Shown in pieces: positions 26,353 through 40,471 of a stretch of 64,000 bases of DNA; the stretch's first letter is position 1, and every line of letters begins with the position of its first letter. A program made the position numbers and the translations under genes. The notes under the pieces were generated by a model. It had not been told where the DNA came from and did no database searches. It was given only the letters and a program-made list of their open reading frames with translations. The DNA is from Halorubrum sp. DM2 (GTDB lineage Archaea > Halobacteriota > Halobacteria > Halobacteriales > Haloferacaceae), in assembly GCF_901686465.1 (NCBI RefSeq), contig NZ_LR594487.1, positions 654,894-718,893 of the forward strand. The letters run 5' to 3'.

Positions 26353-27057
26353 GCTACACACTGCCATTCACAGGTGCCGGTTAAATACGTTGGTGTCAAT
26401 TGTGCGATCGTACTTAGAGGCGCTGAGTCCATGCGAGGCGAACGACCTGAACCACTCGTTTACCGTTACTGCTTCGACAAAATTAAAATAATTTGGTAAA
26501 TAAGTATTCAAATAGTTTTTCTTATATATTATTTGTCTGTCGCTATTCAGGTTCCATCTTGGTCATTTCTGAACAGAGATCGTGTTTTTGACAAGCTTAC
26601 TGAAGTGAACTATATTAATAAAAAGCGTTATAAACTCATATTTATCACAAAAATCAAGAAAAAGCGATTTTCTATATCGTTTTGTTAATCGAAAGGTGAT
26701 TCGGAATCCGACCGGTTTTTGGCTGTCGATCGATTTCCCGATCTCAGTTATACTCGATCAAGCGAACACAATTGAACTCAAATACATAAAGAATCCTATA
26801 TACATATTAAAATGGTATTTCTGGCAGCCGAAACAGAACACTAAACTTCAGCAACAGCCACGGTGTTGCTTCTCGCTCCACGAACGCTACGTTGATCTCG
26901 TCTAAACAGTCCCTGAAGCGGGTGTTCTCGGGGATGGACGGCTTTGAAACCCTACCGTCACCTTTCAAACCGTATCTGCGCACCACCACGAGAATACTCA
27001 AGACAGTGAAATTAGAGTGGGACGATAGCTACTGACCTCCAAGACCAACTCACGCGG
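26353..27057. other. AT-rich accessory spacer
   Basis: This is the most AT-rich stretch of the window, especially 26470-26830, with many runs of A and T and no open frame of haloarchaeal character. Its only recognisable content is the IS6-type transposase remnant at 26812-26935. It marks the left edge of an accessory island reaching to about 28.2 kb. Confidence 0.6.
26812..26935 (-). pseudogene. N-terminal remnant of an IS6-family transposase
   Basis: The minus strand reads IPENTRFRDCLDEINVAFVE-REATPWLLLKFSVLFRLPEI. This fits the start of haloarchaeal IS6-type transposases, which begin near MPE-x-RL and contain the hallmark FVEREATP. The start codon appears as ATC (26935-26933) and homology is lost after about 40 codons, so the gene is dead. 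The DDE catalytic part is absent. Confidence 0.7.
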
Positions 27058-27150
27058 CTTTGTTGAAATCCTATTCTTCAGACAGTTACTCACCTGAAAC
27101 ATCCGGTCACTGGAGAGTGCGAATTGATCGCTGAGAATCCTCCTAGTTTG
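27058..27150 (+). mobile_element. solo left end of an IS6-like element (copy B)
   Basis: GGCTTTGTTGAAATCC opens the sequence and is followed by TCTTCAGACAGTTACTCACC-TGAAACATCCGGTCACTGGAGAGTGCGAA. This tracks the left end of the intact element at 33243 for about 85 bp. No matching right end is found downstream before 28.5 kb. It is a truncated or deleted copy lying beside the antitoxin-like gene. Confidence 0.65.
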
Positions 27151-31825: not shown

Positions 31826-33208
31826 ATGGACGTCCGGCTGACCTACGAGGACGGCACGATCCGGGTCGAGGCGGACGCCGACCTCGCGGCCGACGCGCTG
31901 CCGCCGCTGCCCGGCGTCGAGACGGACCCGCGAACGGGCACGGCGCGCGCTCCCGCGCACCGCTACGCCGAACTCCGGCGGGCGCTCCGGGTGGCCGGGA
32001 TCGGCGTCGACGACCGGGTCCTCGACGTGAGCGACCGCGCCGCCGAGGCGGCCGGGCTGCCGGACGCGCTCGCCACCGACTACGACCTCCGCGAGTACCA
32101 GCGGGAGGCGCTCGACGCGTGGCACGAGGCGGGCGACCGGGGGGTGATCGAACTGCCGACCGGGGCGGGGAAGACCGTGATCGCGATCCGGGCGATGGTC
32201 GATCTCGGCGTGCCGACGCTCGTCGTCGTCCCGACCGTCGACCTCGTCGACCAGTGGCAGCGCGAACTGGAACGCGAGTTTTCGGCCCCGATCGGCCGGT
32301 TCGGCGGCGGCGAGCAGCGCCGGGAAGCGATCACGGTGTCGACGTACGACTCCGCGTACCTCAAGGCGGACGGCGTCGGCGACGCCTTCGAGTTCGTCGT
32401 CTTCGACGAGGTACACCACCTCGGCGGCGAGGGGTACCGCGACGCCGCGCGGCTGCTCGCAGCCCCCGCGCGGCTCGGTCTCACCGCGACCTTCGAGCGC
32501 CCCGACGGCGCTCACGAGGCGGTCGCGGAGCTGGTCGGCGACCGCGTCTACGCGCTCGATGTCGACGACCTCGCCGGTGACCACCTCGCGCCCTACGACA
32601 TCCGGCGGATCGAGGTGGAGCTGACCGACGCGGAGCGCGAGCGCTACGACGAGAAGCAGGGTACGTTCGTCGAGTACGTCCGCGAGGCCGGGATCACGTT
32701 CACCAGCGGGAGCGACTATCAGGAGCTGGTCAAGCGCTCCGGCAACGACCCCGCCGCCCGCGAGGCCCTCCTCGCGAAACAGGACGCCCGCGAGATCATG
32801 ATGAACGCCGAGCGGAAGGTGGCAAAGCTGGCGGCGATCCTCGACCGCCACCGCGACGACCGCGTGATCGTGTTCACCGGCCACACCGACCTCGTCTACC
32901 GGCTCTCGGAGCGGTTCCTGCTGCCCGCGATCACCGCCGAGACGGGCGCGAAGGAGCGCCGCGAGATCCTCGAACGCTTCCGCGATGGGACCTACGGGCG
33001 CGTCGTCGCCGCCAACGTCTTAGACGAGGGCGTCGACGTGCCCGACGCCAACGTCGCGGTCGTCCTCTCCGGCTCCGGTAGCGAGCGCGAGTTCACCCAG
33101 CGGCTCGGGCGCGTCCTCCGACCGAAGGAGGACGGTGGCCGGGCGACGCTCTACGAACTCGTCAGCGCCGAGACCGCTGAGGAGCGCGTGGCAAGCCGGC
33201 GGCGGTGA
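31826..33208 (+). CDS. rad25: XPB/Rad25-type DNA helicase
   Basis: This 460-residue superfamily 2 helicase matches archaeal XPB. An N-terminal damage-recognition-like domain (about 1-85) precedes the Q-like LREYQREALDAW, Walker A PTGAGKT, DEVHH box and LTATFERPDG. The second RecA domain has VIVFTGHTDLVYRLSERF, VLDEGVDVPDANV and QRLGRVLRP. XPB opens DNA in nucleotide excision repair and interacts with the nuclease Bax1 in some archaea; no Bax1 gene is adjacent. The product ends 34 bp before a transposable element, which did not damage it. Confidence 0.93.
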   Translation: MDVRLTYEDGTIRVEADADLAADALPPLPGVETDPRTGTARAPAHRYAELRRALRVAGIGVDDRVLDVSDRAAEAAGLPDALATDYDLREYQREALDAWHEAGDRGVIELPTGAGKTVIAIRAMVDLGVPTLVVVPTVDLVDQWQRELEREFSAPIGRFGGGEQRREAITVSTYDSAYLKADGVGDAFEFVVFDEVHHLGGEGYRDAARLLAAPARLGLTATFERPDGAHEAVAELVGDRVYALDVDDLAGDHLAPYDIRRIEVELTDAERERYDEKQGTFVEYVREAGITFTSGSDYQELVKRSGNDPAAREALLAKQDAREIMMNAERKVAKLAAILDRHRDDRVIVFTGHTDLVYRLSERFLLPAITAETGAKERREILERFRDGTYGRVVAANVLDEGVDVPDANVAVVLSGSGSEREFTQRLGRVLRPKEDGGRATLYELVSAETAEERVASRRR

Positions 33209-33242
33209 GCAGGAACAGTCGAAAGACGATATGTATTGACCG

Positions 33243-33569
33243 GGCTCTGTTGAAATCCCAGTATTCAGATGTTTTCTCGTCTGAAATAGCCGGTCTGTAA
33301 AGCGTGCGAACGTGTCGGTGAGAAAGACGCTATATCTCGAACGCGCCTCCACACTCCGGACATTCGGCGATACCGTTTGGTGGTTCAGGCTCAACTTGTA
33401 CTTCCACCTCTGCCCCGCATTCAGGGCATTCGAAAATTTCCGTTTTCATCATATAGTGATTTTTCTGGCTGGGACTTAAGCGTGGGTACCAGTTCTATCG
33501 GAGAGTAGTTCTCCTGTATTGAGCAATTTGCGGTGTGAACTATCAACTGTTGAGGATTTCAACAGAGCC
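33243..33569 (-). mobile_element. intact 327-bp MITE-like element with IS6-like ends (copy C)
   Basis: Perfect 16-bp terminal inverted repeats (GGCTCTGTTGAAATCC at the left, its complement at the right) are flanked by an exact 8-bp direct repeat ATTGACCG (33235-33242 and 33570-33577). The TIR resembles IS6-family ends and IS6 makes 8-bp duplications. There is no room for a transposase; the only gene is a 39-codon zinc-ribbon ORF. Subterminal regions match copies A, B and D. Confidence 0.92.
33330..33449 (-). CDS. 39-residue double CPECG zinc-ribbon protein
   Basis: This tiny ORF encodes two CPECG knuckles, at residues 8-12 and 30-34, joined by an acidic, Pro-rich linker, and ends GGAFEI. It belongs to the style of haloarchaeal small CPxCG zinc-finger proteins. 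The ATG at 33449 (or 33452, one codon longer) has CTTAAG at 33475-33480, about 27 nt upstream, so expression is plausible. It fills the centre of the 327-bp element and is its only cargo. Binding of zinc is expected from the four cysteines; a target is unknown. Confidence 0.75.
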   Translation of the reverse strand: MKTEIFECPECGAEVEVQVEPEPPNGIAECPECGGAFEI

Positions 33570-33610
33570 ATTGACCGAGGAGTGACTACGACAATTGCTT
33601 ATAAATGACG

Positions 33611-33921
33611 GTGCGGTGGCGCGTGCCTCCGAGCGGTCGCCTCTGGCGACCGCGAGGAGCACCGCGCGAGGGAGTCAGCGGCGACCAGCGGGAGCCGCTG
33701 ACGAGGCTGGGGAGGTGTGAGGTGCTGTGCGGGGTGGGAATCGAAGGGGCAGTCGCGAGGACAAAGCACGACGAAGTAAGCACCGCAGGGAGTGAGCGAA
33801 GCGAACGACCGAGGAGCGCAGCGAGTCGCGCGAGTCCTCGCGGCTGGGGCTTCGGTGGTCGTGTTCTCAGCAGAATCCGCATCGTAGCGAGCGGCTGGGG
33901 CTTTAGCGGTGTTCGCTGTTC
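33611..33921 (-). repeat. GC-rich dispersed repeat, copy 2
   Basis: On the minus strand it starts with two boxes of the form GAACACC-N3-AAGCCCCAGCCGC (near 33921 and 33867). It continues through the shared GC-rich body and ends GGCACGCGCCACCGCACC. It lies outside element C, 41 bp beyond its right end. A TTGCTTATAAATGA stretch at 33596-33609 borders it. Open frames through it are not genes. Confidence 0.8.
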
Positions 33922-33958: not shown

Positions 33959-34657
33959 TTAATCGTCGCCGTCGATGTCGAGCGAGCGCTTCTCGCCGAG
34001 TTCCTGTTCGAGACTCCCGCGCTCCCAGCTCCTGACGGCGTCGCCCTCGACCTCGGCGCGGAGCTTCTCTTCGAGGAGGTTCACCGCGACGCTGTTCGCG
34101 CCTTCGGGGATGATCACGTCGGCGTGTTTCTTCGACGGCTCGATGAACTGCTCGTGCATCGGCTTCACCGTCGAGAGGTACTGGTCGATGACGCCCTCCA
34201 GGTCGCGGCCGCGGTCGATAACGTCCCGCCGGATCCGCCGCAAAATGCGCACGTCGGCGTCCGTCTCGACGAACAGCCGGAGGTCCATCATGTCGTTTAT
34301 CTCCTCGTCGTACAGCGCTAAGATCCCCTCTAACACGATGACGTCGGTCGGCTCGACGGTGATGCGCTCGTCTTTCCGGTTGTGAACCTCGAAGTCGTAC
34401 TGGGGCATCTGGACGGACTGGCCCTCAAGCAGGGATTCGAGGTGCTCTCGCAGCAGTTCCCACTCGAACGCCGAGGGGTGGTCGTAGTTGACCTCCTGCC
34501 GCTCCTCGAAGTCGAGGTGCGAGAGGTCCTCGTAGTAGTTGTCGAGCGGGATTCGAGTGACGCTGTCGCCGAGATCGCGGGTGACGAGCCGGGAGACCGT
34601 CGTCTTCCCAGCGCCCGTCCCGCCCGCGATCCCGATCACGAACGAGGGAATGGCCAT
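33959..34657 (-). CDS. udk: uridine kinase
   Basis: This 232-residue P-loop kinase has Walker A GIAGGTGAGKTT, the nucleoside-binding segment IPLDNYYEDLSHLDFEERQEVNYDHPSAFEW, VLEGILALYD, and the lid region RRIRRDVIDRGRDLEGVIDQY. It phosphorylates uridine/cytidine in pyrimidine salvage. ATG 34657 (MAIPSFVIG) starts right before the P-loop as usual for the family; an upstream in-frame extension is basic and unlike coding sequence. It is a few dozen bases from the repeat copy. Confidence 0.93.
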   Translation of the reverse strand: MAIPSFVIGIAGGTGAGKTTVSRLVTRDLGDSVTRIPLDNYYEDLSHLDFEERQEVNYDHPSAFEWELLREHLESLLEGQSVQMPQYDFEVHNRKDERITVEPTDVIVLEGILALYDEEINDMMDLRLFVETDADVRILRRIRRDVIDRGRDLEGVIDQYLSTVKPMHEQFIEPSKKHADVIIPEGANSVAVNLLEEKLRAEVEGDAVRSWERGSLEQELGEKRSLDIDGDD

Positions 34658-34913
34658 ACCGCCGTTCGAACGTCGGAGGGTTTGAACGCTCCCTTTTCGT
34701 CGTCCCGCCCTCCGCATCACTCGCCGCGTTCGACTCGCCGCGTTCAACTCGCCCGTAACTCCCGGAGAACTCCCGGACAACTCACGGACAACTCGGGCAA
34801 CTCTCTGAAGGTCTCGCGCCGTTTAGTGTGCGAATCGATCGCAAGAGTACGATCGGTGGCGGTATAACGGTATCGGGGGCAGCTTTTAGCCGATCGGAGC
34901 GAATTCGAGACGT

Positions 34914-39400: not shown

Positions 39401-39563
39401 GTGGGATCGGAGATCGGACGCAAACGAGATCGAGGGGCAGAGACGGAGTCGACGGGGGATCAGTGGCTCTGTTGAAATCATGGAAACGTGATAGGTTCTG
39501 TTCTCCCGTGCGGTCAATACAATATATTCGAGTAAGACATCGGGTCTCACCCTGTAGAGATCT

Positions 39564-40016
39564 TCAGGGTGAGCCGACGTTGTTATGACGCTGTGTGAGG
39601 TATGCGGTCGCTCCAAATAACGTAGCAACGTAGATTAATGGGGTAACGAGTCCAAATACGTGAATGGCCGCAACGAAATAATACAGCGGCTTGGAAGGGT
39701 TCCAGCCGTTCTCGTTCTGATTCAACGCACGAACGTCCATGATCAGACTCACCGAGAATAGCGGCACCAACAATCCACCGACGAAAACCAGTCCGATACC
39801 AGTAATGACGGAGAGGAGCGGGAATCCAGCTTCGGCTCCAAAATGGGCAATCCACACGACTGCTGTGAGAATCGGAACGACTACAACGCCATACCACCAG
39901 TTAGATTCTGGCACTGTTCCTTGTTTGAGTGAAACGCCGCAGTTCAAAAATTGTTCGCCAGCTAATGCTGTCTGCTGAATTTGAACCCTACATCTTGTAC
40001 GGTGTCCGAACATCAT
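39564..40016 (-). CDS. cargo membrane protein of the composite element
   Basis: This protein of up to 150 residues has three to four membrane helices, with VVVVPILTAVVWIAHFG, FPLLSVITGIGLVFVGGLLVPLFSVSLIMDVRAL, and LYYFVAAIHVFGLVTPLIYVATLFGATAYL. The pattern DxRAL...W.P...LYYF and the final LTQRHNNVG is that of a common haloarchaeal small membrane protein family without known function. Base composition is much lower in GC than the neighbouring genes, consistent with transfer. The first ~35 residues may be untranslated, since they lack family character. It lies between two element ends. Confidence 0.72.
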   Translation of the reverse strand: MMFGHRTRCRVQIQQTALAGEQFLNCGVSLKQGTVPESNWWYGVVVVPILTAVVWIAHFGAEAGFPLLSVITGIGLVFVGGLLVPLFSVSLIMDVRALNQNENGWNPSKPLYYFVAAIHVFGLVTPLIYVATLFGATAYLTQRHNNVGSP

Positions 40017-40137
40017 CTGAGACTGGTAGGACTTCCGACGGTCGATAAGCAGGTTTCATGGACCGGCTGTTTCAGGCGAGAATCTATCTGAAGAAGAGAT
40101 TTTTATAAAGCCTCTCGTATATAAATCGCTGATCGAT

Positions 40138-40396
40138 ACGAACACCGCCGAAGCCCCAGTCGCGAGGCGGGCGCACGCTCGCTGTGCTCCTCGTCGCTCG
40201 CTTCACTCGCTCCTGCGGTGCTTGCTTCGCCTGCGCCCGCCTCGCGACTGCCCCTTCGAGTCCCGCCCAACCGCAACCGCAGCCTCACACCTCCCCAGCC
40301 TCGTCGGCGGCTCCCGTTGGTCGCCGCCGACTCCCTCGCGCGGTGCTCCTCGCGGTCGCCGAGGGCGACCGCTCGGAGGCACGCGCCACCGCACCG
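40138..40396 (+). repeat. GC-rich dispersed repeat, copy 3
   Basis: It starts ACGAACACCGCCGAAGCCCC-AG and ends GGAGGCACGCGCCACCGCAC, sharing the body with copies 2 and 4. It is preceded by TATATAAATCGC, a TATA-like stretch also seen at the other copies. It lies inside composite element D next to its right end. The open frames across it are artefacts. Confidence 0.8.
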
Positions 40397-40471
40397 CAGA
40401 TCGGTCGCTGTTCTTCCTGTACTGAGCGATTAAGGGAAGTATCAACTAATAAGAATTTCAACAAAGCCGGA

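Follow-up and report, generated by a model that had tools for sequence, protein, structure and literature searches.

A 327-bp zinc-ribbon element of Halorubrum, very probably a mobile insertion cassette with IS5-type ends

IS231 provides an example of the mobile insertion cassette (MIC) relationship in Bacillus cereus. MICs, such as those of this species, have been described, as have insertion sequences (ISs) with passenger genes, which are referred to as transporter ISs (PMC3129680). In an MIC, IS-type ends and target duplications surround a passenger without a transposase, and the unit is thought to be mobilized in trans; the 327-bp element described here is likewise built. Haloarchaeal examples are ISH2 of Halobacterium and HqIRS32 of Haloquadratum, transposase-less elements of about 520–530 bp that contain a probable coding ORF and are mobilized in trans (PMC3119063, PMC10264941). 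ISH1, of 1130 bp, has an 8-bp target-site duplication (TSD) (PMC10264941), and a passenger gene carried by a transposon of Halorubrum lacusprofundi has been suggested to act in virus exclusion (PMC10544981). Hence MICs, passenger-carrying ISs and ISH2 as a haloarchaeal MITE with a coding ORF are already known. In the open-access literature, we found no description of the cassette family reported below or of its terminal inverted repeat (TIR) sequence.

The window, i.e. the whole 64,000-nucleotide stretch of Halorubrum sp. DM2 that was analyzed, contains a transposase-less element of 327 bp at 33243..33569. Its left TIR (GGCTCTGTTGAAATCC; 33243..33258, plus strand) and right TIR (33554..33569, minus strand) are complementary at 16 of 16 positions, and an exact 8-bp direct repeat, ATTGACCG, flanks the element at 33235..33242 and 33570..33577. 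No other perfect 16-bp inverted repeat (150–4000 bp apart) in the 64 kb is flanked by an exact 8-bp direct repeat, and none occurred in 20 Markov-random windows. As an empty-site query, we used both flanks of the element joined by a single ATTGACCG. This query found matches in 52 of 52 Halorubrum genomes, several of which run through the junction, with the single site, and without the 327 bp. Because these relatives align across the junction without the insertion, it follows that the insertion is confined to the window's lineage and is intergenic. A helicase-like gene (31826-33208) precedes the element and a kinase-like ORF (33959-34780) on the opposite strand follows it, both labels having been read from the translations. 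With a GC content of 48%, compared to 67% for its surroundings, the element is an AT-rich insert. The earlier note had delimited a 327-bp element with 16-bp TIRs and an 8-bp duplication, and these data confirm it. The transposition had also been called recent; the intact TSD and the absence of the insertion from the relatives examined are in line with this, but no timing can be given.

Adjoining the element, at 33610-33870, is a dispersed repeat, GC-rich and roughly 250 bp long, which has about 40 chromosomal copies at 79–88% identity. Copies also occur within another cassette of the window (39465-40468, described below), and one copy probably makes up the whole interior of a 582-bp cassette (L252 6370-6951) with the TSD AACTGATC.

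With up to two mismatches allowed, the GGCTCTGTTGAAATCC TIR has 62 matches in the window's genome (35 forward, 27 reverse), compared to a single match for the reversed control. Cassette-end matches were seen in 51 of 52 Halorubrum genomes, and a 27-base left-end pattern identified 118 stretches in the GTDB set, from Halorubrum, Natrinema, Halorussus, Halopenitus, Natrialba, Halobellus, Halorientalis, Haloplanus, Halohasta, Haloterrigena, Halostagnicola, Natronoglomus, Haloferax, Halarchaeum and Halonotius. We then catalogued paired TIRs with exact 8-bp duplications in the retrieved loci, using shifted 8-mers as the control, and obtained 73 distinct elements of 178–2994 bp versus 0 in the control. 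Those without inner TIR matches (61 elements) form 49 clusters, 46 of them transposase-less. A small transmembrane (TM) protein ORF, called by one hydropathy rule, is present in 25 of these 46 representatives, compared to a mean of 5.1 in random genomic stretches (maximum 9, 50 draws) and 2.1 in Markov shuffles. One caveat here is that TM and ORF calls in the cassettes are heuristic.

Dozens of different passengers are carried, mainly small membrane proteins of 57–182 aa. Others include a HalOD1-domain protein, a DUF5518 protein, an M48 peptidase and a lipobox protein with a weak (below cut-off) Lamin-Tail-Domain match; the majority of the passengers scanned match no Pfam family. For passengers common to two elements, the dN/dS ratios are 0.11, 0.21-0.26, 0.23, 0.23, 0.23, 0.32 and 0.43 (passenger families of 63, 57, 125, 128, 116, 182 and 313 aa, not listed in the order of the ratios), and many ratios for the overlapping frames are near or >1. 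Where testable, several passengers evolve under purifying selection. The TIR/TSD scan revealed a second cassette of this family in the window, of 1004 bp (39465..40468) with an exact TSD, GGATCAGT. Its passenger ORF (39564..40016, minus strand) encodes 150 aa (homologous part about 116 aa) with ~4 hydrophobic segments. A 713-bp relative with a different TSD (L306) carries a 94% identical passenger, and the dN/dS of 0.11 for this pair argues for strong purifying selection on the predicted four-TM protein.

Other arrangements were also encountered. In the window, a solo left end at 27056-27071 (TIR 15/16) has left-end homology to about 27137, and a right end was not detected. Elsewhere in the same genome are nested or tandem cassettes (L017 2013-2898, 1241012-1241897; L020 2020-3646, 3012019-3013645; L013 1550-2956, 3111549-3112955) that contain a 164-aa passenger three times, with ~95% nucleotide identity and no Pfam or NCBIfam match; one of these copies has two tandem right ends within one TSD. 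On plasmid pHrrPV6 of Halorubrum sp. PV6, a 759-bp cassette (L076 2303-3061) with an exact TSD, TGCCGTAG, carries an annotated HicA/HicB-type toxin-antitoxin pair.

Ends of the GGCTCTGTTGAAATCC type with exact 8-bp duplications also flank elements that encode an IS5-family transposase (273 aa; NF033579, 218 bits versus a cut-off of 140; PF01609). Autonomous elements with exact 8-bp duplications include L110 (1176 bp), L131 (1211 bp), L109 (1355 bp), L122 (1418 bp), L113 (1535 bp) and L121 (1651 bp), among others, and in most autonomous copies the distance between the element tip and the start codon of the transposase is exactly 53 bp. By tblastn, this transposase matches 15 of the 73 catalogued elements, 12 of them at 77–98% identity. 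In the window's genome (one contig; plasmids may be missing), the best match is only 47% identical and resides in a 937-bp element with diverged ends, GGCTCTGGTGAATCGC; a close cognate transposase was not found there. ISH1 belongs to the IS5 family. It has the transposase family and the 8-bp duplication in common with the elements described here, whereas the transposase-bearing relatives here have extra passengers, namely varying membrane proteins beside the transposase. These autonomous relatives fit the transporter ISs, from which the 327-bp element differs in lacking a transposase (PMC3129680). In Halorubrum relatives, the left and the right ends of the autonomous IS5-type elements L111, L124 and L125 are each present twice, with a spacing of about 90 bp, which suggests integration of one element at a fixed position in another element's end.

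The 327-bp element has its TIRs in common with autonomous ISs, namely the IS5-family elements; its TSD has the same length as theirs (8 bp, exact in both); and it carries a passenger gene without a transposase gene. Based on these features, it is best described as an MIC with IS5-type, not IS6, ends. In comparison with the MICs of B. cereus, the present family is archaeal, has IS5-type ends and very many passengers with a membrane-protein bias, and possesses separable left and right modules (~57 and 45 bp); copies of one passenger are found with different ends. ISH2 and HqIRS32 resemble the window's cassette in being haloarchaeal, transposase-less and ORF-bearing, but ISH2 is mobilized by ISH8, generates 10-bp duplications and is a single element with a single ORF, not a family with interchangeable passengers (PMC3119063, PMC10264941). 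Very probably, then, the locus is an MIC with two end modules recognized by an IS5-family transposase in trans and one independently promoted passenger. It is a member of a large family in haloarchaea, whose common left and right modules carry many different small passengers, whether or not the transposase gene is also present.

The passenger of the 327-bp element is a zinc-ribbon ORF (33330..33449, minus strand), the product of which is MKTEIFECPECGAEVEVQVEPEPPNGIAECPECGGAFEI. Translation from the ATG at 33449 gives 39 aa, and from the ATG one codon upstream (33452) 40 aa. The 39-aa protein contains two CPECG knuckles and has the C-terminus CGGAFEI. A box-A-like promoter element, CTTAAG (33475..33480, minus strand), is centered about 28 nt upstream of the ATG and is conserved in the sister copy considered below. 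Such spacing is expected for leaderless haloarchaeal transcripts. A non-autonomous element with a small, TATA-equipped zinc-ribbon gene and two CPECG knuckles had been proposed from the outset, and this description holds, with CTTAAG as the 'TATA'. In Pfam, Zn_ribbon_LysW (PF21344) is the only listed family over its cut-off (28–39 bits versus 27). LysW carrier proteins have a C-terminal EDWGE-type tail. This tail is absent from the 39-aa protein, and family models of the carriers score 20.5 versus a cut-off of 53.2 and 25.8 versus 75; we therefore rejected membership in that group. An AlphaFold2 model (two-sequence input) has four strands and a pLDDT of 82.6; in a fold search its nearest matches, all of them zinc-ribbon look-alikes and none significant (E > 0.1), include ZitP, archaeal ribosomal S27e-like chains and LysW.

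Haloarchaea contain C(P)XCG one-domain zinc-finger micro-proteins (Brz, HVO_2753, HVO_0758) that are also <70 aa and have two CPxCG knuckles (PMC11241148, PMC2253796), and some of the CPxCG micro-proteins influence transcription, stress adaptation or biofilm formation (PMC2253796, PMC6562870). With its 39 aa and two CPECG motifs, the passenger matches this description. It scores below all cut-offs of the NCBIfam models for each of the three named families, and, unlike their members, it rides on a transposable cassette. We prefer to view it as a predicted host-affecting passenger of the CPxCG micro-protein kind. A role as regulator of transposition, which the earlier note had considered in the form of a selfish element encoding its own regulator, is unlikely because related elements with the same ends transpose without the zinc ribbon. 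The other idea put forward there, a vehicle that spreads small zinc-finger genes, does not fit the family either. The same ends carry dozens of unrelated passengers, no CPxCG passenger other than the zinc ribbon was seen in the catalogue (other C..C pairs do not belong to CPxCG proteins), and the zinc ribbon occurs only here and in one relative.

That relative emerged from a search for the zinc-ribbon interior in 392 genomes sampled from the order plus all 52 genomes of the genus; the interior is present in only two genomes, the window's and that of Halorubrum G302. The G302 element (L025 5086-5407) is 322 bp in length and lies in an unrelated genomic context. Hence a second mobile copy of the zinc-ribbon element exists, and its frame is intact; neither of the two outcomes that the earlier note had named as refuting, randomly broken frames or a lack of other mobile copies, was observed. 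The two proteins differ by I5L, E20D and E32V (39-aa numbering), with all four cysteines kept. From the ATG on, the ORFs show three nonsynonymous and one synonymous differences, too few for dN/dS, and the non-coding interior, 91–96% identical, is about as conserved as the ORF. Given only two copies, four differences and an equally conserved non-coding interior, selection on the zinc ribbon is not demonstrable. A TSD was looked for at the flanks of the G302 element and is absent, as expected after recombination between elements. The same contig encodes a matching IS5-family transposase twice (93–97% identity). We also considered viral spread of the zinc-ribbon cassette, and rejected it: neither the interior nor either of two end patterns has a match in IMG/VR, and the element has no match in phage records. 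In plasmid records, the cassette ends have matches and the zinc ribbon does not.

It could be argued that the element is a simple MITE of an IS5-type transposon, with the zinc-ribbon frame a chance, dead and unexpressed relic. The element is indeed very short, the catalogue includes elements of 178-276 bp without a TM or zinc-ribbon ORF, and the even conservation of coding and non-coding interior is as a relic would have it. However, two precisely spaced CPxCG motifs with a Pfam zinc-ribbon match, a fairly confident, beta-rich and zinc-ribbon-like AlphaFold2 model, a promoter-like box at leaderless spacing, the intact frame and four cysteines of the second mobile copy, and the purifying selection on sister passengers all speak against this explanation, which we regard as improbable.

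Beyond the TIR, the family's ends are asymmetric, with GGCTCTGTTGAAATCCTATTCTTCAGAcAtATTcTCgcCTGAAACAGCcGGTCgaTGA on the left and GGCTcTGTTGAAATCCTCAGcAg.TGATA on the right. The 327-bp element has one end of each type, both normal: a left-end module at 33243..33299 (plus strand) and a right-end module at 33525..33569 (minus strand), the consensus of which, read inward, continues beyond TGATA to the inner border CCTGTATTGA. Interior positions 61-282 are about 95% identical between the window and G302 copies. By contrast, the left modules are 57–61% identical (61% at positions 17-57, compared to 75% for random left pairs) and the right modules 55% (random right pairs, 58%), and each end is better matched by the ends of elements with unrelated passengers. 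A similar tendency is seen in other pairs with a shared passenger (interior 0.91 with ends 0.59/0.74; interior 0.87 with ends 0.66/0.76), and in one pair the relation is inverted, with an interior of 0.76 and ends of about 0.95. These alignments are most simply read as an exchange of ends around one and the same zinc-ribbon passenger, probably by inter-element recombination; passengers and ends behave like modules that can be swapped.

An alternative is that the cassette arose by internal deletion from one autonomous IS5-type element that formerly contained both transposase and zinc ribbon, and the presence of passengers beside the transposase in autonomous family members lends this some plausibility. 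Yet in most autonomous copies the partner of the left-type end is of the transposase-proximal type, TCAGAGAGTTACATG, whereas the right end of the 327-bp element is of the non-autonomous type (TCAGcAg.TGATA). Moreover, no autonomous element with the zinc ribbon was found, and the unrelated end modules of the sister copy favor module exchange. We therefore judge this origin to be unlikely, to about the same degree as the relic.

Kinship with IS6 had been proposed in the earlier note from TIR shape and duplication length, and the outline of the TIR (GG at the tip, then cTGTt) together with the 8-bp duplication does resemble IS6 (PMC7986276). Among the elements of the window's genome with IS6-type transposases (PF13610), those that can be delimited are mostly about 697 bp and end differently, in GGTAGTGTTCAGATAAG, and a tblastn comparison of IS6 transposases with the 73 TSD-verified elements gave no match. 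Full-length IS6 elements with the cassette's ends are thus found neither among the delimited IS6 elements of this genome nor among the 73, and the IS6-like outline is a resemblance only, common to IS5-type ends. An IS6-family derivative carrying its own zinc-finger transposition regulator is therefore extremely improbable, since, besides the differing ends, IS5-family and not IS6 transposases are present in the family, and same-end elements without the zinc ribbon show that it is not needed for transposition.

Returning to the trans-mobilized cassette, its ends, TSD and empty site, the ends common with IS5-family transposase elements, the diversity of passengers, and the differing end modules around one interior in two genomes are all observed. 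An IS5-family transposase from another element would cut at the TIRs and carry out the insertion with a stagger of 8 bp, and ends and passengers would be swapped when elements recombine within their conserved end modules. The zinc ribbon may be expressed from a leaderless transcript and may persist as a host-affecting passenger, not a transposition regulator. More tentatively, and with somewhat less than even confidence, we suggest that haloarchaea possess a modular cassette system, integron-like but driven by a DDE transposase, in which exchangeable end modules may gather, reshuffle and disseminate small genes of an open-ended repertoire, most of them for membrane proteins under selection, with the 327-bp zinc-ribbon cassette among the smallest members.

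IS annotation and gene calling readily overlook cassettes of 300-800 bp that hold a single tiny gene. Should passengers and ends be exchangeable, archaea would have a simple route to spread micro-proteins, including zinc-finger and membrane proteins, and for many orphan small proteins both origin and function would become testable.
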